In this document: positions 5,426-45,922 of the stretch, in pieces | How the letters are laid out: each line of letters begins with the position of its first letter | Numbering within the stretch: the stretch's first letter is position 1 | Made by a program: the position numbers and the translations under genes | Notes under the pieces: generated by a model | The model's database searches: none | Told to the model about the DNA's origin: nothing | What the model saw: only the letters and a program-made list of their open reading frames with translations | Source of the DNA: Nesterenkonia salmonea | Lineage (GTDB): Bacteria > Actinomycetota > Actinomycetes > Actinomycetales > Micrococcaceae | Direction of reading: 5' to 3' | Assembly: GCF_005771525.1 (NCBI RefSeq) | Contig: NZ_VAVZ01000029.1 | Coordinates: forward strand, 1 to 47,166 | DNA length: 47,166 nt

Positions 5426-6790
5426 CTAGAAGTCCCGGGCCATATCGCGGAACCGCTGGAAGTGTCCCTGGAACGCAACGGTGATATCCCTGGCAGGGCC
5501 GTTACGGTTCTTGGCCACAATAATGTCCGCCTCACCAGCGCGCTCGGTCTCCTTGTCGTAGACCTCCGGCCGGTGCAGCAGCATGACCATATCGGCGTCC
5601 TGCTCAATGGCACCGGATTCACGCAGATCCGAGACCTGTGGTTTCTTATCCGGCCGCTGCTCAGAACCACGGTTCAGCTGTGACAACGCAATAATCGGCA
5701 CATCGAGTTCCTTGGCCAGCAGCTTCAACGTTCGGGAGAACTCGCTGACCTCTTGCTGGCGGGACTCCACGCGCTTGCCAGACATCAGCAGCTGAAGGTA
5801 GTCCACCACCACCAGTTTCAGATTCTCCCGCTGCTTCAGCCGGCGGCACTTGGCCCGAATTTCCATCAGGGTCAGGTTCGGCGCATCGTCAATGAACAGT
5901 GGAGCCTGCTCCAGCTTGTCCATAGCCCGAGCCATTTTCTCCCAGTCCTGATCCTTCAGGCTCGAGCCCTTCCGCAAATCACCGAAGAGCACCTGAGACT
6001 CAGCCGCCAACAGGCGCATAGTCAACTCAACCTTGCTCATCTCAAGGGAGAAGAACGCCGTCGTCATCCGATGGGTGACAGCCGCAGACCGGGAAAAGTC
6101 CAACGCCAAAACAGATTTACCCATTGCCGGGCGAGCAGCGATCACAATCAGCTGACCACCATGGAATCCGTGAGTAAGCTCGTCCAGCTCACGGAAGCCG
6201 GTGGGGATACCAGAAAGCGTCCCATCATTGGCAGCATTGAGCTCGATCTCTTCAATGGTCGGTGCCAGCACCTCAGAGAGCCGCGAATAGTCCGAGGTCT
6301 GGCGGTTCTCCGCCACATTGTAGATCTCTGCCTGAGCCTCATTGACGATGGAATCCACCTCGCCGTCTGAGGTGTGCCCCAACTGCACAATCTTGGTTCC
6401 CGCTTCAACCAAGCGGCGCAGAACCGCGCGTTCACGAACAATGTCCGCGTAAAAGGCAGCATTCGCGGCGGTGGGCACCGCCTGGGCCAGGTTGTGCAAA
6501 TACGCCGGACCGCCGATCCGCTGCAGCTGCTGAGTCTTGGTGAGCTGGTCGGAGATCGTGACCACATCGGCCGGTTCCCCGCGACCATAGAGATCAATGA
6601 TCGCTTCAAAGATCATCTCGTGCGCCGGCCGGTAGAAGTCGCCTCCGCGGACCACCTCCACCACATCGGCGATCGCGTCCTTGGAGAGCATCATGCCCCC
6701 CAGGACCGACTGCTCGGCCACCATATCCTGCGGGGGAGTGCGCGATTCAGCGCCAGCACCAGTGCTGGGGTTATAGGTCTCCACACTCAT
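5426..6790 (-). CDS. dnaB: Replicative DNA helicase DnaB
   Basis: Hexameric 5'-3' helicase that unwinds DNA at the replication fork. 454 residues from the chosen ATG. The N-terminal primase-binding domain (about 20-130) begins with the typical PPQDMVAEQSVLGGMM. The RecA-like motor follows, with Walker A ARPAMGKSVLALD, the FFSLEM motif, Walker B VVVDYLQLL and the C-terminal LSQLNRGSEQR segment. No intein interrupts it. The start at 6790 is preceded by GAGGAG at a 9-nt spacing; an upstream GTG at 6811 would place that ribosome site inside the gene. It lies 94 bp downstream of the condensation-domain gene on the same strand. Confidence 0.97.
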   Translation of the reverse strand: MSVETYNPSTGAGAESRTPPQDMVAEQSVLGGMMLSKDAIADVVEVVRGGDFYRPAHEMIFEAIIDLYGRGEPADVVTISDQLTKTQQLQRIGGPAYLHNLAQAVPTAANAAFYADIVRERAVLRRLVEAGTKIVQLGHTSDGEVDSIVNEAQAEIYNVAENRQTSDYSRLSEVLAPTIEEIELNAANDGTLSGIPTGFRELDELTHGFHGGQLIVIAARPAMGKSVLALDFSRSAAVTHRMTTAFFSLEMSKVELTMRLLAAESQVLFGDLRKGSSLKDQDWEKMARAMDKLEQAPLFIDDAPNLTLMEIRAKCRRLKQRENLKLVVVDYLQLLMSGKRVESRQQEVSEFSRTLKLLAKELDVPIIALSQLNRGSEQRPDKKPQVSDLRESGAIEQDADMVMLLHRPEVYDKETERAGEADIIVAKNRNGPARDITVAFQGHFQRFRDMARDF

Positions 6791-6883
6791 GCAGACACAC
6801 TCCTCAGACACCTTGTGGGATTCACGCGAGCTCCCACTCTACCGGCTACACCAGACAACACACTACGACGCCGTCTTGGACTC

Positions 6884-8260
6884 TCAGTGCCCCGATCCAG
6901 CCTTGATTGCCCGCAGCGCCTGATGCTCCAAGGGGGCGCGCAATCCGTAGACGAGTCCGGCAAGCCAGGTGCGCATAGAACGCCTCGCCTGCCGAGTGTC
7001 CGGGTACCGGCAGCGCAGGTGCATACCGGTCTGGTTGATCACGAACCAGATCATGACTCCGTCTGTCCGGATCACCGCAGAAACATGCTGGGGGTTGAGT
7101 TCATCATCGACGTTGACAGGCAGTTTCCGGTGATCCAACCACGACATCGCGAACATACCTGGGTCCTGGGGCATGCCACCGTAGGGGCGCATAATCGGAG
7201 CCAGCGGATAGGACCCGAGCCGGATAGCTTCCTTCACCGCGGCGTAACAGGCCTGGTAGTCGTCGTCGTGGTTTTCCAACACAGAATTAGTGATGAACCA
7301 CCCCACAGAGTTGAACCAGCGAGACTCATGGCGGGAGTGCACAGGGAACACTGCCCGCAGCGGACCTCCGGACAGCTCAGCTGCGAGCCGGGTCATCACT
7401 GACACCGCCACGGCAATCAGACGCACTTTGTGCTCTGCCGCGTGAGCTTCCACCTGAGCGAGCTCATCGGCATCGAACACATCGCGAATCTCAACAAACT
7501 CACCCACCGGCTGTGACACATCACCTAAGTCAAGTGGGAACCGAGGCATCGAGTTGCCGCCGGCTTCGAGGATGTCACTCCACCGCTCAACCACCTCCTT
7601 CGGCGGAGCCGGGTGCTCCTCAAGCACCTGTGAATGTGCGGCAAAAGACTCCACAGCAGGCAGACCAGTATCAAGGGGCCGGCCATCGAGCAGATTCTGG
7701 ACACAAGTGGCGAGATCGCGAGTCAGCACCAGCAGACTCCACGCATCTACATGAGCGTGATCGGATCCGATGATGACCTGCGGTGTCTCCGTTCCCGCCT
7801 CATCCTCGATCACGCATAGCCGGTAGGAGGGCGCTTCCAAGGAGCGGCACACCAGGTCGAAGTGCTCGCGCAACACCGTGCGCAGGGCAGGCGGGGTGAG
7901 CACCGAGCCCTCACCCAGCTGTTCCCACTCCCCCGGAGCCACCTCCACAGGGTTCAGAGTCAGATTCGTCCCATTCCCCCCAGCCTGCTCATCCCAGGAG
8001 AACACACTGCGCAGGGTGCCGTGGCGGTGGACGACCTCAATCCATCCCTGCGCGATGATCTCGCGATCAGCATGAACAGGAAGGGAAAAGCTCACCGCCA
8101 TCCACGAACCGGGGCGTGAGCCGAAACTGACATGCCGGTCCTGGTCAAAAGACACCGGAAGGCGTTCAGCATCAGGGGAATCAGTCATCTCTGCGCGGAT
8201 GGAGTAGCTGTACACCCTGCCGGGCTGCACCTGCATCTGCGAGACATTGGTCAGCCGCAT
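6884..8260 (-). CDS. Stand-alone condensation-domain/acyltransferase-like protein
   Basis: 458 residues, no signal peptide or membrane helix. The segment DHAHVDAWS (167-175) carries the HxxxD signature (His168, Asp172) of the CoA-dependent acyltransferase superfamily, which includes NRPS condensation domains, PapA-type and wax-ester acyltransferases. Overall layout (two roughly equal halves, with a floor-loop-like region after about 300) fits a single condensation domain. No adenylation or carrier-protein gene is in the window, so it may esterify or amidate a small metabolite or lipid. The ATG has no ribosome site, but TACACT ends 6 nt upstream, indicating a leaderless mRNA. It is divergent from the alpha/beta hydrolase gene and precedes dnaB. 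Substrate unknown. Confidence 0.75.
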   Translation of the reverse strand: MRLTNVSQMQVQPGRVYSYSIRAEMTDSPDAERLPVSFDQDRHVSFGSRPGSWMAVSFSLPVHADREIIAQGWIEVVHRHGTLRSVFSWDEQAGGNGTNLTLNPVEVAPGEWEQLGEGSVLTPPALRTVLREHFDLVCRSLEAPSYRLCVIEDEAGTETPQVIIGSDHAHVDAWSLLVLTRDLATCVQNLLDGRPLDTGLPAVESFAAHSQVLEEHPAPPKEVVERWSDILEAGGNSMPRFPLDLGDVSQPVGEFVEIRDVFDADELAQVEAHAAEHKVRLIAVAVSVMTRLAAELSGGPLRAVFPVHSRHESRWFNSVGWFITNSVLENHDDDYQACYAAVKEAIRLGSYPLAPIMRPYGGMPQDPGMFAMSWLDHRKLPVNVDDELNPQHVSAVIRTDGVMIWFVINQTGMHLRCRYPDTRQARRSMRTWLAGLVYGLRAPLEHQALRAIKAGSGH

Positions 8261-8338: not shown

Positions 8339-9175
8339 ATGTGCCGGAACCACCGGCACCAGCACAAGAAGGTGAAGAACACCGCCGTGGCTATGTTCCA
8401 AACAACAGGAGCCAAACTCGCCTATGAGGTGGAGGGCCCGGACTCCGGTCCGCTCTTCGTCCAGATGCATGGACTGACATCCTCAGCGTGGCGGGAGCAT
8501 CGTGCTGGCTTGGACGTGACCGGTCAGCTCGATGGGTTTCGTGTGTTGCGCTTCGACTCACGGGGCCATGGATCCTCCACAGGCCGCGCGGTCCCGGAGG
8601 ATTACCTGTGGTCACAGCTGGCAGAGGACTTGCTGGAACTGCTGGACGCCATAGCCCCCGGTGAACAGGTCCACACTGGCGGCCCTTCGATGGGTGCGGC
8701 GACACAAATCTGTGCGGCACTGAAAGATCCCCAGAGGTTCGCCTCGCTGAGCCTGCTCGTGCCGCCCACGGCATGGGCAACACGCAGTGCACAAACTGAT
8801 CAGTACCTGCGCTCGGCCGAACTCGTAGAAGACCATGGCATTGGCGCTTTCGTGCGAATGGGTGAATCCATGCTTCCACCCCCTGCGCTGGCTGACCGTC
8901 CGCGTGAGCGCGTTCCCGCAGTTAGCCAGGAACTCCTTCCGTCCATACTGCGCGGAGCCGCTATGACCGACCTGCCAAGTGTTGAAGACGTCGCCCAGCT
9001 GGAGGTACCGATCCAAATCCTTGCATGGGTAGACGACCACGCTCATCCAGTCTCTACTGCGGAGAAGCTGAACCGGCTGCATGCAGAGTCGCAGTTGTCG
9101 ATTGCAGAGACTCCCGAGGACCTGGCAACCTGGCCCACTCGGGTCGCTACCTTCGTGGAGCGCCACCGCCGTTGA
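8339..9175 (+). CDS. Alpha/beta-hydrolase fold protein
   Basis: 278 residues from ATG 8339, which has GGAG six nt upstream. Homology-like sequence begins only at the internal Met19 (8393), so the basic first 18 residues may be dispensable. Fold markers: oxyanion HG in QMHGLTSS, strand-turn FDSRGHG, nucleophile elbow GGPSMG and the acid-strand segment ILAWVDDHAHP. The usual catalytic His near the C-terminus, normally in a GH motif, is not evident: the corresponding segment reads AETPEDLATWP. It may therefore be a non-hydrolytic member or use a displaced histidine. Substrate unknown. Divergent from the condensation-domain gene; the two could act on related metabolites, but this is only inference. 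Confidence 0.8.
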   Translation: MCRNHRHQHKKVKNTAVAMFQTTGAKLAYEVEGPDSGPLFVQMHGLTSSAWREHRAGLDVTGQLDGFRVLRFDSRGHGSSTGRAVPEDYLWSQLAEDLLELLDAIAPGEQVHTGGPSMGAATQICAALKDPQRFASLSLLVPPTAWATRSAQTDQYLRSAELVEDHGIGAFVRMGESMLPPPALADRPRERVPAVSQELLPSILRGAAMTDLPSVEDVAQLEVPIQILAWVDDHAHPVSTAEKLNRLHAESQLSIAETPEDLATWPTRVATFVERHRR

Positions 9176-9394: not shown

Positions 9395-9578
9395 GGATGC
9401 ACGCCGGAGATTACCGGCCAATATCCACGTCGTGTGTCATAACACACAGGAGCCCCCGCTCTACCGAAAAACCTCAAACTGATCCCCTGGAAGGGGCCTA
9501 AGGTCTCCGAAAGGCGAAGAGGGACGATTGACACTGTAGGCCCGTGAACGCGCCCGGGCAATAGGTCCCTCACAAGGC

Positions 9579-9811
9579 CCTGTGGATAAAATGTGGAGTG
9601 CGCGGCGTGTCGTGTGAAGAACCTGAGGGAAACGTGTGGATAAAGCTGTAGATATCTCTGGGATATCCTTCTGACTAGGAACGATGTAGCGACACGCTGT
9701 GAGTTAAAAGTTTTTCTCACCACTTTTTTCGACAGCACCAGGCACTTGCTGTTCACCCTAAGTTGGGTGTATAGCCATCTTTGGACGACCGTTTTCCACA
9801 GAATCTCCACA
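9579..9811. promoter_or_regulatory. Ectopic DnaA-box cluster resembling oriC
   Basis: Two perfect DnaA boxes in the TGTGGATAA orientation lie at 9581-9589 and 9635-9643. An inverted near-box TTTTCCACA lies at 9792-9800, followed by a weaker box ending at 9811. An A/T-rich patch sits between them (about 9703-9729). The first box is embedded in CCTGTGGATAAA, identical to 37625-37636 in oriC, and both are followed a few bases later by TGGAGTG. The inverted box is followed by GAATC as in oriC: TCCACAGAATC at 9795-9805 and 37811-37821. Box order and orientation match. It could titrate DnaA, be a vestigial or secondary origin, or regulate the downstream gene. Confidence 0.65.
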
Positions 9812-9872
9812 GGCTGCGCGGCGTGTAGTGAGTTACTTGAACGTGAGGCCTGTCATGTTCGCATGTAACTCT

Positions 9873-9884
9873 TTCAAATTTGAA
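9873..9884. promoter_or_regulatory. 12-bp palindrome upstream of monooxygenase gene
   Basis: TTCAAATTTGAA is a perfect palindrome 61 nt upstream of the start codon at 9946, a reasonable place for a repressor site of the MarR/TetR size class. No intact regulator is adjacent. Confidence 0.35.
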
Positions 9885-9945
9885 GTACTCTTAAGGGGTA
9901 CGAGTTTTCATCGCCTCTTCTTTTCCTACTCTTCGCAGGAGCGCT

Positions 9946-11079
9946 ATGCAGTTCGGTATCTTCTCCATCGGTGACATCACCCCGGATCCCACTACCGGAC
10001 GGGTACCTACCGAACATGAACGGATCAAGTCCACGGTGGCTATTGCCAGGAAAGCCGAAGAAGTGGGGCTTGATGTTTTCGCCATTGGCCAGCACCACAA
10101 TCCCCCGTTCGTGGCTCCGGCCAATCCGCCGATCTTCATGGCGCACATCGCTGCCCAGACTGAGCGTCTTCTGCTCTCCACCGCCACTACGCTCATCACT
10201 ACGACGGACCCGGTGCGCATCGCTGAGGATTACGCCTATGTCCAGCACCTCAGTGACGGTCGGATCGATCTGACTCTGGGCCGGGGGAACACGGGTCCGG
10301 TCTATCCCTGGTTTGGTAAAGACATTCGCGCAGGGGTTCCTCTGGCCGTGGAGAACTACGCTCTGCTGCACCGACTGTGGAGGGAAGAAGAGGTGGAGTG
10401 GAAAGGCCGGTTCCGGACGCCACTGCAGAACTTCACGGCGACCCCCCGGCCACTCGACGGCACCCCACCATTCGTCTGGCACGGATCGATCCGATCCCCG
10501 GAGATCGCAGAACAGGCCGCCTATTACGGTGACGGCTTCTTCCACAACAACATCTTCTGGAACAAGGAGCACACCGGCCGGATGGTTGACCTTTACCGGG
10601 AGCGCTACGCCCATTACGGGCACGGCAGCCCCGAGCAGGCCATCGTCGGCCTGGGCGGTCAAGTGTTCATGCGGCCGAATTCACAGGACGCCGTGCGCGA
10701 GTTCCGGCCGTACTTCGATCGCGCGCCGGTCTATGGCGGCGGCCCTTCGCTGGAGGACTTCACGGAGATGACCCCACTGACAGTGGGCACCCCCGACCAG
10801 GTGATTGAGAAGACACTGAGCTTCCGCGACTACGCCGGGGACTATCAGCGCCAGCTGTTCCTGATCGATCATGCTGGACTGCCGCTGGAGACCGTACTGG
10901 AGCAGATTGAGATCTTGGGCGAAGAGGTCGTCCCGGTTCTTCGCAGGGAAGTCGCCTCACGCGCCCCAGAAGGCACCCCTGCGGCACCGACGCATCAACT
11001 CCTCCGCGAACGCCACAGGGCGGGCTTCGATCCGGTTCCAGGCGGCAGCACCTCAGCTCGGGACGCTGTTGCCTCCTAG
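9946..11079 (+). CDS. Luciferase-like FMN-dependent oxidoreductase (CE1758-like)
   Basis: 377 residues forming a bacterial-luciferase-type TIM barrel. The N-terminal MQFGIFSIGDI, the AEDYAYVQHLSDGR and LGRGNTGPVYPWFG segments, and WHGSIRSPE are typical of the flavin-dependent LLM class, in particular the CE1758 subfamily known from Actinobacteria. Such enzymes use reduced FMN supplied by a separate reductase; the substrate here is unknown. The last 40 residues are Ala/Pro/Arg-rich and probably disordered. A GGAG ribosome site precedes the ATG. The gene is flanked upstream by the DnaA-box region and downstream converges with a MarR remnant. Confidence 0.88.
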   Translation: MQFGIFSIGDITPDPTTGRVPTEHERIKSTVAIARKAEEVGLDVFAIGQHHNPPFVAPANPPIFMAHIAAQTERLLLSTATTLITTTDPVRIAEDYAYVQHLSDGRIDLTLGRGNTGPVYPWFGKDIRAGVPLAVENYALLHRLWREEEVEWKGRFRTPLQNFTATPRPLDGTPPFVWHGSIRSPEIAEQAAYYGDGFFHNNIFWNKEHTGRMVDLYRERYAHYGHGSPEQAIVGLGGQVFMRPNSQDAVREFRPYFDRAPVYGGGPSLEDFTEMTPLTVGTPDQVIEKTLSFRDYAGDYQRQLFLIDHAGLPLETVLEQIEILGEEVVPVLRREVASRAPEGTPAAPTHQLLRERHRAGFDPVPGGSTSARDAVAS

Positions 11080-11737: not shown

Positions 11738-12190
11738 CTACTTGGCCGGAACGACCTGCAGGTCCAGGGTCGCTGTGACCTCGGCGTGCAGCTTCACAGT
11801 CGCGGTGTAGTGTCCAACGGCTTTGATGCGAGCAGGCAGCTCGACGGTGCGCCGATCGATGCTTCCCAGGCCTGCGGCCTGGACGGCCTCAGCAATCTGG
11901 GCTGCTCCGACGGTGCCGAACAGGCGGCCAGACTCGCCGGTTTTCACACCGACCTGCACTGTGCGTGCCTGCAGCTTCTCGGCGATGGACTGAGCCTCTT
12001 CGACAGTAGCGATTTCGCGGGCCTTGCGGGCCTGACGAATACGCTCCACGTCTTTTTCGCCGCCTTTGGTCCAGGTCAACGCGTAGCCGCGGGGCAGCAG
12101 GTAGTTGCGCGCGTAGCCGTCTTTGACCTCGACGACATCGCCGGGGGCACCGAGGCCGGTGACTTCCTGAGTCAGGATGAGCTTCGACAT
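11738..12190 (-). CDS. rplI: 50S ribosomal protein L9
   Basis: 150 residues, the standard length. The N-terminal domain that binds 23S rRNA carries the family signature: [20 protein letters not shown] at about residues 19-38. The long connecting helix (about 40-75) and the C-terminal domain with [15 protein letters not shown] follow. A purine-rich AAGGAA ribosome site precedes the ATG. Last gene of the rpsF operon, 28 bp after rpsR, followed by a strong terminator. Confidence 0.97.
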
Positions 12191-12218
12191 ATCAGTAGTT
12201 CCTTTCCTTCCTCAGTAA

Positions 12219-12461
12219 TCAGCCGCGGCCAGCGCCGGAGTACGGCAGCAGGGCCATTTCGCGGGCATTCTTGATCGCCTGGGCGATCTTGCGCTGCTCC
12301 TGGACCGATACTCCGGTCACACGGCGGGCGCGGATCTTGCCACGGTCGGAGATGAACTTCCGAAGCAGGGCAGTGTCCTTGTAGTCAATGACCTTGATGT
12401 CAGCAGCCTTCAGCGGGTTCGCCTTGGGCTTTGGCTTCTTGGTGATATCAGCCTTTGCCAT
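12219..12461 (-). CDS. rpsR: 30S ribosomal protein S18
   Basis: 80 residues from the ATG at 12461, which has GGAG 7 nt upstream; a Met six codons earlier is less likely because it lies before that ribosome site. The S18 core is clear: [19 protein letters not shown] followed by [19 protein letters not shown]. There are no cysteines, so this is the zinc-independent form. It pairs with S6 on the 30S platform. It lies 74 bp downstream of ssb in the same operon. Confidence 0.97.
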
Positions 12462-12535
12462 CGTGGTGCTCCTTTTCATGATGGGGAGCCCGCGCTCTTA
12501 CGCGGGATGGTGAATAGTTGTCAGTAAGTAAAGCG

Positions 12536-13099
12536 TTAGAACGGGGGTTCGTCGTTGCTGCCGGCGTCCCAGCCGCCGCCCTGCGAAGGCTGTCCGCCCC
12601 AGGGGTCCGACTGTTGCCCGCCGCTGTTGGGCGAGCCTCCGCCGAATCCACCGGGTTGCTGGCCTCCTCCGAACCCACCGCCCGGGTTGCCACCGCCTTG
12701 GTTGCCACCGAATCCGCCGCCGCCCTGGCGGGGCGCCTGACGTTCGATCTTGGCCGTGGCGTAACGCAATGAGGCGCCAATCTCGTCGACGTCGAGTTCC
12801 CAGCTGGTCCTGTTGTTGCCCTCTTTGTCCTCGAAGCTGCGAGCTTTGAGGCGTCCTTGAGCAACAACGCGTGTGCCCTTTGTCAGCGATTCGCAGACAT
12901 TTTCCGCAGCTTCACGCCAGAGTGAGCAGCGGACGAAGAGTGTTTCTGCGTCCTTGTACTCATTGGCCTGACGGTCGAAGTAGCGGGGTGTGGAAGCGAT
13001 GACAAAGTTGGTCACCGGTGCCCCGGAGGGAGTGAACCGGAGCTCTGGGTCAGCGGTCAGGTTTCCGACGACGGTGATGACAGTTTCGTTATAGGCCAT
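12536..13099 (-). CDS. ssb: Single-stranded DNA-binding protein
   Basis: 187 residues. The OB-fold spans about 1-110 ([14 protein letters not shown], then the [14 protein letters not shown] and [12 protein letters not shown] segments). A long Gly/Gln/Pro-rich linker of repeated GGG units (about 120-178) leads to the acidic tip NDEPPF, the docking site for replication and repair partners. SSB coats single-stranded DNA at forks. It sits between rpsF and rpsR, the normal arrangement, 58 bp downstream of rpsF. Confidence 0.97.
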
Positions 13100-13157
13100 G
13101 TGGTGTACCTCTTTTCAGTAGTTCGTGTACCAAATATTCTGGGCCCAGATGCCTGTC

Positions 13158-13457
13158 TTAGGCGACCTTGAACTCTTCAGGGCGGATGATCTTGGTGCGC
13201 AGAATAGTCTCATTCAAGCGCAGCAGACGGTCCAGCTCTTTAGCGGAGTCAGGGGTGGAGTGGAAATTCACGACGGCGTAAATCGCCTCAGTCTTCTTCT
13301 GAATCTCGAAAGTCAGCTGACGGCGTCCCCAAATGTCGACCTCGTCGACGGTTCCACCATCTTTCTTGATCAGTTCCATGTACTTGCCCAGTGTGGGCTC
13401 TACGGTGCGCTCGTCGACCTCAGGGTCGACCAGCACCATTAGTTCGTAATGACGCAT
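13158..13457 (-). CDS. rpsF: 30S ribosomal protein S6
   Basis: 99 residues from the ATG at 13457, which has a strong GGAGG site 9 nt upstream; an open frame extends 34 codons further but crosses this ribosome site and the leader. The S6 fold is recognised from [34 protein letters not shown] and the C-terminal [15 protein letters not shown]. It forms a heterodimer with S18 on the ribosome. First gene of rpsF-ssb-rpsR-rplI. Confidence 0.97.
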
Positions 13458-13484
13458 TATGAACCCACCTCCTTCGGTCTTGCG

Positions 13485-13503
13485 GTCACGGGATTTCCGT
13501 AAC
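13485..13503 (-). promoter_or_regulatory. Leader hairpin upstream of rpsF (possible S6:S18 site)
   Basis: In the rpsF mRNA leader a 7-bp stem (GTTACGG with CCGTGAC, one G-U, 5-nt loop) is followed by GACCGCAAGACCGAAGGAGG leading into the ribosome site. In many bacteria rpsF mRNA carries an autoregulatory structure bound by S6:S18 that contains an exposed CCG; two CCG triplets occur here. A possible -10, TAACAT, lies at 13558-13563 on the minus strand, which would give a leader of about 95 nt. The match is by position and partial motif only. Confidence 0.35.
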
Positions 13504-13595
13504 AGGAGGTTCTTTGCGTGGTGTTCCATGCCGACAGTCATCGGCACAGACCGCACCATGTTACCCCTAATCCCGGATGAGTACGAACGGGCTGG

Positions 13596-35845: not shown

Positions 35846-35854
35846 TTATCCACA
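35846..35854 (+). promoter_or_regulatory. DnaA box upstream of dnaA
   Basis: Perfect TTATCCACA 64 nt before the dnaA start, with weaker copies at about 35826-35834 and 35860-35868. It fits DnaA autoregulation of its own gene or an accessory part of the origin. Confidence 0.75.
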
Positions 35855-37441: not shown

Positions 37442-38003
37442 ATGATCTCTTGTGGGGTTCCACGCTGGGACGAATCACAGGCACCGGGACTGCTTCGTAC
37501 ACATCTCACACTGATGTAGTTCCGCGGGATGAGCGCATCCAGGTCTGATTGACAGAACGGTATTCCACAGTTTTCCTCACATATCCACAGGTAGGGGTGG
37601 ACTGTGGCCCTTCCTGAATGCACACCTGTGGATAAACCAGTGGAGTGTGAGTGGAACTTTTCCATACATCTGTGGATAACTGCACCTGATCTGGGGATGA
37701 AGCCTTGGGACCCTCATAAATCCTCCCCGTGTAGTTCACACAGCAGACCGGAACAACCCACGGTCGAATGCACAAGCCGTTCAGGCCCAGCAAGCACCAA
37801 GAAGTAGTTATCCACAGAATCCACAACAGTTACTACCACCTCTGATCTTTAAACTTAGAAATTCTCTCGACAAGCAACTGTTCTGTTCCCGGGTGCTAGA
37901 TGTTGTGGTCAAAAGCAAGACTTTCGGCATATCTGGTAGAGACTGTAAGCTCGTCCCTCAGACACACCTGGCCGAATGCTTGACTTTGTGAGGGAGCCCC
38001 ACA
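37442..38003. other. oriC: Chromosomal replication origin oriC (dnaA-dnaN intergenic)
   Basis: 562 bp without a gene. Perfect DnaA boxes at 37627-37635 and 37671-37679 (TGTGGATAA orientation) and 37808-37816 (TTATCCACA orientation). Near-matches at 37561-37569, 37581-37589 and 37817-37825. An A/T-rich stretch at about 37845-37870 after the last box is the likely unwinding element. Position between dnaA and dnaN, and gene orientation diverging around it, agree with the origin. The promoter of dnaN must lie in its right part. Confidence 0.92.
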
Positions 38004-43318: not shown

Positions 43319-45922
43319 GTGAGCGATAACACTCCAGAGAACCCGGACGTTCCGGCCCCCTTGACCGGCGTGGAAGTCGACCGTGTGCGGCAGATTGATC
43401 TGCAGACGGAGATGAAGCGGTCCTATCTGGACTACGCGATGGCCGTAATCGTCGGCCGTGCCCTGCCTGACGTTCGCGACGGTCTGAAGCCTGTCCATCG
43501 GCGCGTCCTCTACGCCATGTATGACGGCGGCTTCCGTCCCGACCGGTCGTTCAACAAGTGTGCACGCGTGGTCGGCGAGGTCATGGGTTCTTACCACCCG
43601 CACGGCGACTCAGCGATCTACGATGCCCTCGTGAGGCTCATCCAGGATTGGGTGATGCGCTATCCGCTGGCCACCGGCCAAGGGAACTTCGGAAACCCCG
43701 GCGACGACGGCGCCGCCGCACCCCGTTACACCGAGACCAAGATGGCCCCCCTAGCCATGGAAATGGTCCGGGACATCAACGAGGACACCGTTGACTTCCA
43801 GGACAACTACGACGGTAAGCAGCAAGAACCCGTAGTGCTGCCCGCCAGGTTCCCGAACCTGCTGGTCAATGGCTCCTCCGGCATCGCGGTGGGCATGGCC
43901 ACGAACATTCCTCCGCACAACCTTCGCGAGGTTGCCTCAGGCGTCCAGTGGTACCTGCAGAATCCTCAAGCCTCACGTGAAGAGCTCCTAGAGGCCCTTC
44001 TGGAACGTGTTCAGGGACCAGACTTCCCTACCGGGGCCCAAATTCTGGGTACCCAGGGTATTGAGGACGCCTATCGCACCGGCCGCGGATCCATCACCAT
44101 GCGTGCAGTGGTCAGTGTGGAAGAACTCCAGGGCCGTTCCTGCCTGGTGGTCACCGAGCTTCCGTACCACGCGAACCCTGACGCACTCGCCCGTAAGATC
44201 GCCTCCCTGGTCAAAGACGGAAAAATCGGCGGTATCGCTGAGATTCGCGATGAGTCCTCGGGCCGGACCGGTCAGCGCCTGGTGATCATTCTCAAGCGTG
44301 ACGCCGTGGCCAAGGTGGTCCTGAACAACCTGTACAAGCACACCCAGCTGCAGGACAACTTCTCCGCGAACATGCTCGCACTCGTGGACGGCGTGCCCCG
44401 CACGCTGAGCCTGGACGCATTTGTGCACCACTGGGTGTCACACCAGATCGAGGTCATCGTCCGGCGTACTCGCTTCCGGCTGGCCAAGGCTGAGGCGGAG
44501 GCCCACATCAAGGTCGGCCTGCTCAAAGCGCTCGATGACATTGACCGGGTCATCGAGACCATCCGCGGCTCGGCCAATGTGGATGAGGCTCGCGAAGGCT
44601 TGAAGCGGCTGCTGGACATTGACGACAGCCAGGCCACCGCCATCGTGGACATGCAGCTGCGCCGTCTGGTGGGTCTGGAACGGCAGAAGCTGCAGAACGA
44701 ATACGACGAGCTGATGCGCATGATCGAGGACTTCCGAGCAATCCTCGCCAGCGAGGACCGGCAACGGCAGATTGTCAGTGATGAACTCACCACCATTGTG
44801 GACAAATTCGGTGACGAGCGCCGGACTCATATTCTCCGCGGCTACGGCGGTGACATGTCCATGGAGGATCTCATCCCGGAAGAGGATGTGGTGGTCTCCA
44901 TCACCCGTGACGGTTACGTCAAGCGCACCCGCATTGACAACTACCGTGCCCAAATCCGGGGTGGCAAGGGAGTCCGCGGCGCCCAGCTGAGGGTTGACGA
45001 CGTCGTCGAGCATTTCTTTGTCACCACCACGCACCACTGGATCTTGTTCTTCACCAACCTGGGAAGGGTTTACCGCACCAAGTGCTATGACCTCATGGAA
45101 TCTGGCCGTGATTCGAAGGGCCAGCACGTGGCCAATGTTGTGGCATTCCAACCGGATGAGAAGATCGCTGGAGTCCTAGCGCTGAAGAACTACGACGACG
45201 CCGACTACCTTGTCCTGGCCACCAAGTCCGGTTTGGTGAAGAAGACCAAGCTCACTGACTACGATTCACCCCGGCAGGCTGGCGTGATCGCCATCAACCT
45301 GCGTGAGGATGATGAGCTGGTCTCAGCGAAGCTGATCACCGCTGAGGATGACCTGATGCTGGTCTCCCGGAACGGCCAGTCGCTGCGTTTCACCGCCACT
45401 GACCAGGCGCTTCGCCCCATGGGTAGGGCGACCTCCGGTGTCACCGGTATGAAGTTCCGTGCCGATGATGAACTGCTCACCGCTGATGTGGTCGCCGAGG
45501 ACTCCTATGTGTTCATCGTCACTGAGGGCGGTTTCGCCAAACGCACCCATGTCGATGACTACCGGATCCAGGGCCGCGGCGGTCTTGGTATCAAAGTTGG
45601 GAAGTTCGTCGAGGATCGCGGCAACCTGGTCGGTGCCATGGTGGTGGAAGAGGACGACGAAGTGCTTGTGGTCATGAATTCCGGCAACGTGGTTCGCTCC
45701 GCAGTGTCAGGCGTTCCACCGCGCGGACGCGACACGATGGGTGTCATATTCGCGAAGCCGCGTAAGAATGACCGCATCCTCAAAGTGGCCAAGTCTTCCG
45801 GCGCAGCATTGGCTGCAGCAGGCGAAGAAGTAGGCTCTGAGGACGGCTCGGAAGGCACGCCAGCTGATAACGAAGCCGCAACACCTGAAGTAGAGGTTCA
45901 GGATTCTGAGAGCTCCGAATAG
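43319..45922 (+). CDS. gyrA: DNA gyrase subunit A
   Basis: 867 residues. Breakage-reunion domain with catalytic Tyr137 in AAAPRYTET. The quinolone region [15 protein letters not shown] retains the Ser (98) and Asp (102) equivalent to E. coli Ser83/Asp87, so no classical resistance change is seen. The beta-pinwheel C-domain has the GyrA box [10 protein letters not shown]. The last 45 residues are acidic and Ala/Glu-rich. GTG start with GAAGGAAGAG upstream. Same strand as gyrB. Confidence 0.98.

Follow-up and report, generated by a model that had tools for sequence, protein, structure and literature searches.

DARS1 and DARS2 of Escherichia coli are non-coding groups of DnaA boxes that lie outside oriC. 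According to excerpts of PMC5720831, no homologues of DnaA regulators have been identified in many bacteria, among them the mycobacteria. Clusters of DnaA boxes repress untimely initiation in Streptomyces coelicolor and Bacillus subtilis, as summarised in parts of PMC4585315 and PMC10950094. DnaA was found bound upstream of dnaB in Mycobacterium tuberculosis by IDAP-seq and at the homologous position in M. smegmatis by ChIP-seq, and one DnaA mutant ties the mycobacterial site to dnaB expression (PMC7738170, in extract). A DnaA site at dnaB is thus already known; the titles and abstract openings listed by a literature search contained no description of an ordered array of the kind reported here in the Micrococcaceae, of its breadth, or of its uncoupling from dnaB.

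The stretch of DNA analysed here (the window, 47,166 nucleotides) is contig C63 of a genome of Nesterenkonia, a genus placed in the Micrococcaceae. Judged by the gene next to the site, N. haasae is its closest named relative (94%). It contains six perfect TTATCCACA boxes, at 9581 (−), 9635 (−), 35846 (+), 37627 (−), 37671 (−) and 37808 (+), against 0.12 expected, and none of 100 shuffles reached six. A first-pass annotation had confined the perfect boxes of the window to the site near 9.6 kb, the region before dnaA (the box at 35846..35854, +, in our box scan) and oriC, and all six were found there. It had also described two perfect boxes followed by an inverted near-box in the order seen at oriC. 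The order is indeed the same, reading −, 54, −, 157, + at the site and −, 44, −, 137, + in the dnaA-dnaN intergenic region (37442..38003, +) that was used as oriC for comparison. At 9792 the near-box reads TTTTCCACA, and 11 bp beyond it there is a weaker ATCTCCACA. The blocks CCTGTGGATAAA, TGGAGTG and TCCACAGAATC, reported as shared, were each found in place at both the site and oriC, and the A/T-rich patch described between the boxes is real (50-mer from 9697, 58% AT); all letter-level claims of the annotation hold.

A genome-wide box count, which the annotation had proposed as a check, gave 27 perfect boxes in the source genome (3.28 Mb). Perfect boxes less than 100 bp apart occur at three places only: the site, oriC and contig C53:51238-51365. 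Comparable box density at random intergenic sites was tested only through this count of close perfect boxes. The idea that DnaA boxes have come together by chance in a long intergenic stretch could draw on the excess of boxes elsewhere in the genome, the reversed control pattern occurring 9 times as against 27, but it is refuted by conservation of the boxes and their spacing across the genus, the family and beyond, and we give it practically no weight.

The site belongs to a conserved, non-coding element of about 290 bp, over which ORFs are common to at most three genomes. A 17-genome alignment, together with nhmmer and model matches, places the whole element at 9395..9812, and the core recognised by model R1 spans 9528-9811. 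The element was found in all 18 mapped Nesterenkonia genomes, namely these 17 and G004 (G006, which is 79% complete and lacks a dnaA match and a close match to the monooxygenase gene described below, stood outside the model search), and it is carried by each of the 23 genomes of the genus that the family draw listed. G016 is 62% complete, and its matches to these two genes are fragmented. An absence of conservation in close relatives had been named beforehand as a possible refutation; the element is conserved and this refutation fails. The recurrent layout consists of boxes A (−) and B (−), 54-55 bp apart, box C (+) after about a further 156-167 bp, and box D 11 bp beyond C, and in most Nesterenkonia it sits upstream of or near the orthologous monooxygenase gene. 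The DnaA boxes are thus conserved in position, with single boxes missing in some genomes when one mismatch is allowed.

Between genomes the identity of boxes A, A′, B, C and D was 0.81-0.96. Over the whole element it was 0.60, compared with 0.485 at four-fold sites of the neighbouring gene, and the element exceeded these sites in 109 of 120 pairs (16 genomes). The alignment of about 290 bp also contains several invariant non-box blocks: GCGGCGTGTC at 9602..9611, TCTGACTAGG and GATGTAGCGACAC at 9670..9695, and TTGC and GGGTGTATA at 9746..9773. Positions remaining after removal of the boxes and of these blocks showed 41% identity, a contrast that is partly circular and overstated, the blocks having been picked by eye on the alignment used for the identity count. 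A further block, GGATGCACGC-(short stem)-GCCAATATCCAC, also given as GGATGCACGC-short stem-GCCAATATCC, is conserved at the left end (9395..9421) in Nesterenkonia; part or all of it lies left of the element in 5 of 34 loci from other genera, and its small stem shows some covariation, with a few compensatory changes.

In the window the site lies 26 kb from dnaA, and the distance is 21-51 kb in the 15 Nesterenkonia that have both on one contig. The element is inverted relative to dnaA in four of these (G003, G004, G012 and G016). It thus comprises several DnaA boxes that are outside oriC yet near it, as would be expected of a titration site.

The interval from box A to box B has a regular internal structure. 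Box A is perfect (9581..9589, −; mean pairwise identity 0.87 in 17 genomes), as is box B (9635..9643, −), which is at offset 54 here and at offset 55 in most relatives. Between them, on the same strand, are weak box-like sites at offset 11 (A′, 9592..9600, with an identity of 0.95 over 9592-9597), offset 32 (9613..9621, TTGTGCACA-like in many relatives) and offset 43 (9624..9632, from the offset scan). Box-like 9-mers at offsets 0, 11, 32, 43 and 55 gave z values of 11-18 in the 17 genomes, which are overstated because the shuffles ignore relatedness, and the same five offsets were the only ones with more than 4.3 of 9 matches in 29 sequences from other genera. The missing step is offset 21, and this helical slot is filled by the conserved GCGGCGTGTC. 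Boxes C (9792..9800, +; TTTTCCACA here, perfect in G002, G003 and G007) and D (9803..9811, +) form a pair 11 bp apart that runs in the direction opposite to A and B. The DnaA of E. coli favours box pairs separated by 2-3 bp, an 11-12 bp register (PMC11317965, in extract), and by analogy the register of the array is the same as this preferred spacing. The 11-bp register together with the E. coli preference therefore leads us to infer a directional DnaA oligomer, which would use A and B as anchors and have C/D facing the opposite way, as they do at oriC.

From the letters, three readings had been proposed: a duplicated origin fragment, a secondary initiation site and a DnaA-titration site. These fared unequally, and the link to dnaB described below was missed. 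Local alignment of the site to oriC, which had been suggested as a check, gave a better score than any of 500 shuffles, though solely on account of box A and its neighbour; when boxes with up to two mismatches were cut out, 387 of 500 shuffles equalled the score. A likeness carried by the boxes, in an element with conserved blocks of its own and its own history at dnaB, does not support a duplicated origin fragment, and duplication of oriC was rejected on the absence of similarity beyond the boxes. Secondary initiation is unlikely as well: the element adjoins neither dnaA nor dnaN, and no DnaA-trio run of at least three was found at 9395-9946. One such run occurs at oriC and 16 in the window, which makes this a weak test. 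The AT-richest 50-mer near the site (9862-9911) contains the palindrome TTCAAATTTGAA and goes with the monooxygenase gene, and for this reason was rejected as an unwinding element. The cumulative minimum of GC skew, at 44,477, is uninformative as an origin test. A second replication origin or a copied piece of oriC would account for the shared −, −, + order, the spacings at oriC being shorter by about one and two helical turns (44 as against 54 and 137 as against 157), and weak model matches do fall at oriC, in one of 40 order-level matches, in G045 and as second hits in L424, L426 and L428. Against this stand the lack of similarity outside the boxes, the lack of a trio run at the site and the separation of the strong homologue from dnaA in 40 of 40 genomes, and we regard such an origin as scarcely credible. 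The titration reading is the closest of the three to the one favoured below, and remains unproved.

The distribution of the element was followed with profile R1, built from sequence only and searched against genomes of the family. It matched 253 of 295 genomes in 30 of 32 genera, nearly always in single copy. No match with the model was found in g21, and that in G039 (E 0.004) is probably due to chance. In the 40 genomes in which dnaA was looked up, the element was on the same strand as dnaA and apart from it in every case; it lay 27 to 260 kb upstream in the 26 whose distance could be read without crossing the contig start, and nearer to dnaA, at 21 and 24 kb, in G043 and G044. A second profile, R2, had matches in 275 of 396 order-level and 256 of 296 class-level genomes; some of the matches counted here fall at oriC or at other clusters of boxes, and they were sorted only for named loci.

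Outside Nesterenkonia, the element is directly upstream of dnaB in 32 of 34 Micrococcaceae loci, and in 12 of the 34 the gene for ribosomal protein L9 lies within 1.5 kb on its other side. Among 40 order-level matches, hand-picked non-randomly from those listed over 14 families, 34 are in the dnaB position, one is oriC and five are at neither (L334, L336, L344, L349 and L351). At class level, the 30 best matches include 27 new loci, of which 25 are in the dnaB position; two of the 27 are order-level, and L368 and L378 were not placed. Species-named genomes outside Nesterenkonia, which may overlap the numbered ones so that the counts are not independent, have the element at dnaB in 10 of 13 cases: Citricoccus zhacaiensis, Enteractinococcus coprophilus, Candidatus Yaniella excrementigallinarum, Rothia halotolerans, Kocuria tytonis (a short match), Streptomyces coeruleorubidus, Streptomyces sp. 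HM190, Planotetraspora kaengkrachanensis, Catenulispora pinistramenti and Actinomadura kijaniata. The exceptions are Brevibacterium linens, whose weak match has no dnaB in its vicinity, and two genomes without a match to the model, those of Tessaracoccus sp. OS52 and Bowdeniella nasicola. The DnaB matches of many genera (L320, L321, L323, L324, L328, L340 and others) are split by a long insert, a pattern that we take to be the one inteins in dnaB would give.

A profile-independent control looked for T[TGC]NTCCACA within at most 700 bp upstream of 28 class-draw dnaB loci, three of which had only 161-317 bp of upstream sequence. At least one core was present at 22 of the 28 loci and none at the other six, and 43 boxes were counted in all, compared with 1.08 expected from block shuffles. 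A homologue directly upstream of dnaB is thus the usual arrangement in the inspected relatives, and the element is very probably a genuine DnaA-binding element homologous to this dnaB-upstream region.

In this Nesterenkonia genome the element does not adjoin dnaB (5426..6811, −; TIGR00665, 535 bits). About 2.7 kb and two genes lie between them, a condensation-domain gene (f2; 6884..8260, −; PF00668) and an alpha/beta-hydrolase gene on the opposite strand (f6; 8339..9175, +; PF00561), and for this reason we call it a displaced variant. The 700 bp directly upstream of the window's own dnaB contain no box-like core. On the far side are rplI, rpsR, ssb and rpsF (11738..13559, −), and the order in relatives points to an older arrangement rpsF-ssb-rpsR-rplI-element-dnaB. 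In each of the 12 Nesterenkonia with an element facing dnaB, these two genes again lie between, and the distance is 2.6-3.2 kb. Five of 17 genomes (G003, G004, G007, G012 and G016) have dnaB on the opposite side, directed away from the element, and in all 17 the element is within about 5.5 kb of dnaB. The flank of G008 is inverted, and its contig ends before dnaB. In G004 (L158) about 155 bp separate the start of the dnaB match from the C/D end of the element, which is opposite to the usual side.

Since the inverted genomes retain the element, it has been kept where an ordinary dnaB-promoter role is impossible. Mismatches summed over boxes A-D were 3-5 in G003, G007, G008, G012 and G016, compared with 2-6 in the other 12 genomes of the alignment, which leaves out G004. 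From these counts the boxes look equally well kept where dnaB points away. Core HMM scores were 188-234 in the five pointing-away genomes and 218-256 in the 12 facing ones, uncorrected for relatedness.

The nearest rival to a stand-alone role is that the element still controls dnaB. A DnaA-tuned transcript would then start on the minus strand, run antisense through the hydrolase gene and continue through the condensation-domain gene into dnaB, and species with an inverted element would use another promoter. Such control would fit the adjacency of dnaB in most inspected relatives, the constant proximity and the 12 of 17 facing arrangements in Nesterenkonia, which would allow a long-range role. 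The lower HMM scores of the pointing-away genomes speak against the stand-alone reading. Control of dnaB would also fit the under-expression of dnaB in a DnaA mutant that binds less at the mycobacterial site (PMC7738170, in extract) and the membership of Caulobacter crescentus dnaB in the DnaA regulon (PMC8203912, in extract). A promoter-like motif on the minus strand, TTGCCC-N17-TACAGT (9533..9561), noticed on visual inspection of the alignment at the flank turned towards dnaB in other genera, is conserved and counts in the same direction, but a stricter consensus scan missed it and found nothing there. Moreover, a plus-strand gene stands in the path in 12 of 12 facing genomes (in the window it is the hydrolase gene, to which a transcript running from the element into dnaB would be antisense), and dnaB points away in five of 17. 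Continued control of dnaB is therefore possible but doubtful. The motif is conserved even where it does not face dnaB, a point that counts against the stand-alone reading.

The right-hand neighbour in the window is a gene for a CE1758-family luciferase-like monooxygenase (LLM; 9946..11079, +; TIGR04036), and here and in 11 other Nesterenkonia this gene follows the element by about 60-260 bp. The element might accordingly be read as the promoter-operator of a neighbouring gene, LLM or hydrolase, repressed or activated by DnaA. This reading takes its support from the 12 genomes in which LLM follows, but LLM is not the right neighbour in G010, G011, G015, G017 and G018, nor in G004. The first five have a glutaminase-family gene (f22; PF04960 for the G010 copy) in its place and keep the element, no match to LLM or hydrolase lies beside the element among the other-genus loci listed (L209-L247), and the LLM gene has a palindrome of its own. 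A monooxygenase promoter was rejected on the ground that the element persists where a different gene lies to its right, and we consider a promoter-operator of either neighbour very unlikely. The AT-rich palindrome, TTCAAATTTGAA (9873..9884), goes with the LLM gene and not with the element. With the pattern used, it or a near version was located in 12 of 17 genomes, 26-87 bp ahead of the LLM start, also in G004, G011 and G017, where LLM is away from the element, and it is perhaps an operator.

A structured RNA was also considered. RNAalifold predicted a consensus fold of −21.4 kcal/mol from the 17 genomes, with double changes in 2 of 33 predicted pairs, and on this covariation an RNA gene was rejected. 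Rfam gave no match in the window except two tRNAs elsewhere. A short RNA running from the minus-strand promoter-like motif to a hairpin at 9394-9377 likewise found no support, the best 40-nt hairpin lying beyond z = −2 in only 2 of 17 genomes, and no consistent terminator hairpin was found in the 17.

Further DnaA-box clusters came to light. The cluster at C53:51238-51365 (L009:7239-7366) contains four perfect boxes, including a head-to-head pair separated by 1 bp, and directly follows a rhomboid gene (PF01694). At least two box-like sites lie within 900 bp after the gene in 28 of 30 rhomboid-homologue loci, and none were found in the remaining two, G012 and a Streptomyces HM190 paralogue. By position this cluster may correspond to the Rv0010c-Rv0011c DnaA site in the extract of PMC7738170. 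Profile R2 also matched in two loci of family f11, L344 and L349, that contain a UvrD-type helicase gene (PF00580 and HRDC in L344; assigned by eye in L349), and these are perhaps another conserved DnaA-box cluster.

With two genes intervening, dnaB pointing away in five of 17 genomes and the boxes seemingly as well kept there, we favour a stand-alone DnaA-binding control locus, a reservoir or modulator derived from the dnaB upstream region, and consider it the probable reading. We likewise think it probable, on sequence grounds, that the Nesterenkonia element acts chiefly on DnaA and initiation rather than on dnaB. Boxes, register, conservation, the dnaB position elsewhere and the displacement here are what we observed, and from them we infer DnaA binding in this organism, the direction of its effect and a partner factor. 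The site would be an ordered DnaA-binding array whose ancestor lay directly upstream of dnaB. Boxes A and B, the strong ones, would act as nucleation points for DnaA, the weaker sites between them would be filled in one direction along a single helix face, and the resulting complex would meet DnaA bound to the C/D pair; a second factor may occupy the conserved non-box blocks. This complex would, in the inspected relatives, mostly sit beside dnaB and probably tune dnaB as well. In Nesterenkonia, where two genes have come to lie between and some elements are inverted, selection would act chiefly on the DnaA complex itself, and the most likely role would be to restrain or time initiation, either as an oriC-linked reservoir of DnaA or as a site that modulates its activity. 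A broader proposal, which we put forward as tentative, is that of a class-wide actinobacterial DnaA control locus, born upstream of dnaB and acting on DnaA itself, which would store DnaA or alter its nucleotide state with a partner at the non-box blocks. If this were true, Nesterenkonia would be a natural experiment in which the function has been cut loose from dnaB and yet kept.

The proposed locus resembles several known systems to different degrees. E. coli datA is, like the site, a non-coding group of DnaA boxes outside oriC with further protein sites (PMC5835720, in extract), and the likeness to datA and DARS is one of layout. The B. subtilis clusters (Okumura 2012, as cited in the extract of PMC4585315) are oriC-proximal and said to repress initiation, and are alike by description. 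Those of S. coelicolor (Smulczyk-Krawczyszyn 2006, as cited in extracts of PMC4585315 and PMC10950094) lie near oriC, as the site does. Two Streptomyces genomes have the element directly upstream of dnaB. From the cosmid names, one of the S. coelicolor clusters may be the dnaB-upstream one. The site of M. tuberculosis (Rv0057) and M. smegmatis is, like the element's relatives, a DnaA-binding region upstream of dnaB, with experimental evidence of binding in the report excerpted above. Several genomes of family f22 gave no match to R2, and the equivalence with the mycobacterial site therefore rests on position, not on alignment. Unlike that site, the Nesterenkonia element is two genes away from dnaB and is turned round in some species, and a widely conserved, oriC-linked array with a defined site map and such dnaB-uncoupled species would make it possible to separate the proposition that DnaA tunes dnaB from the proposition that this DNA tunes DnaA.
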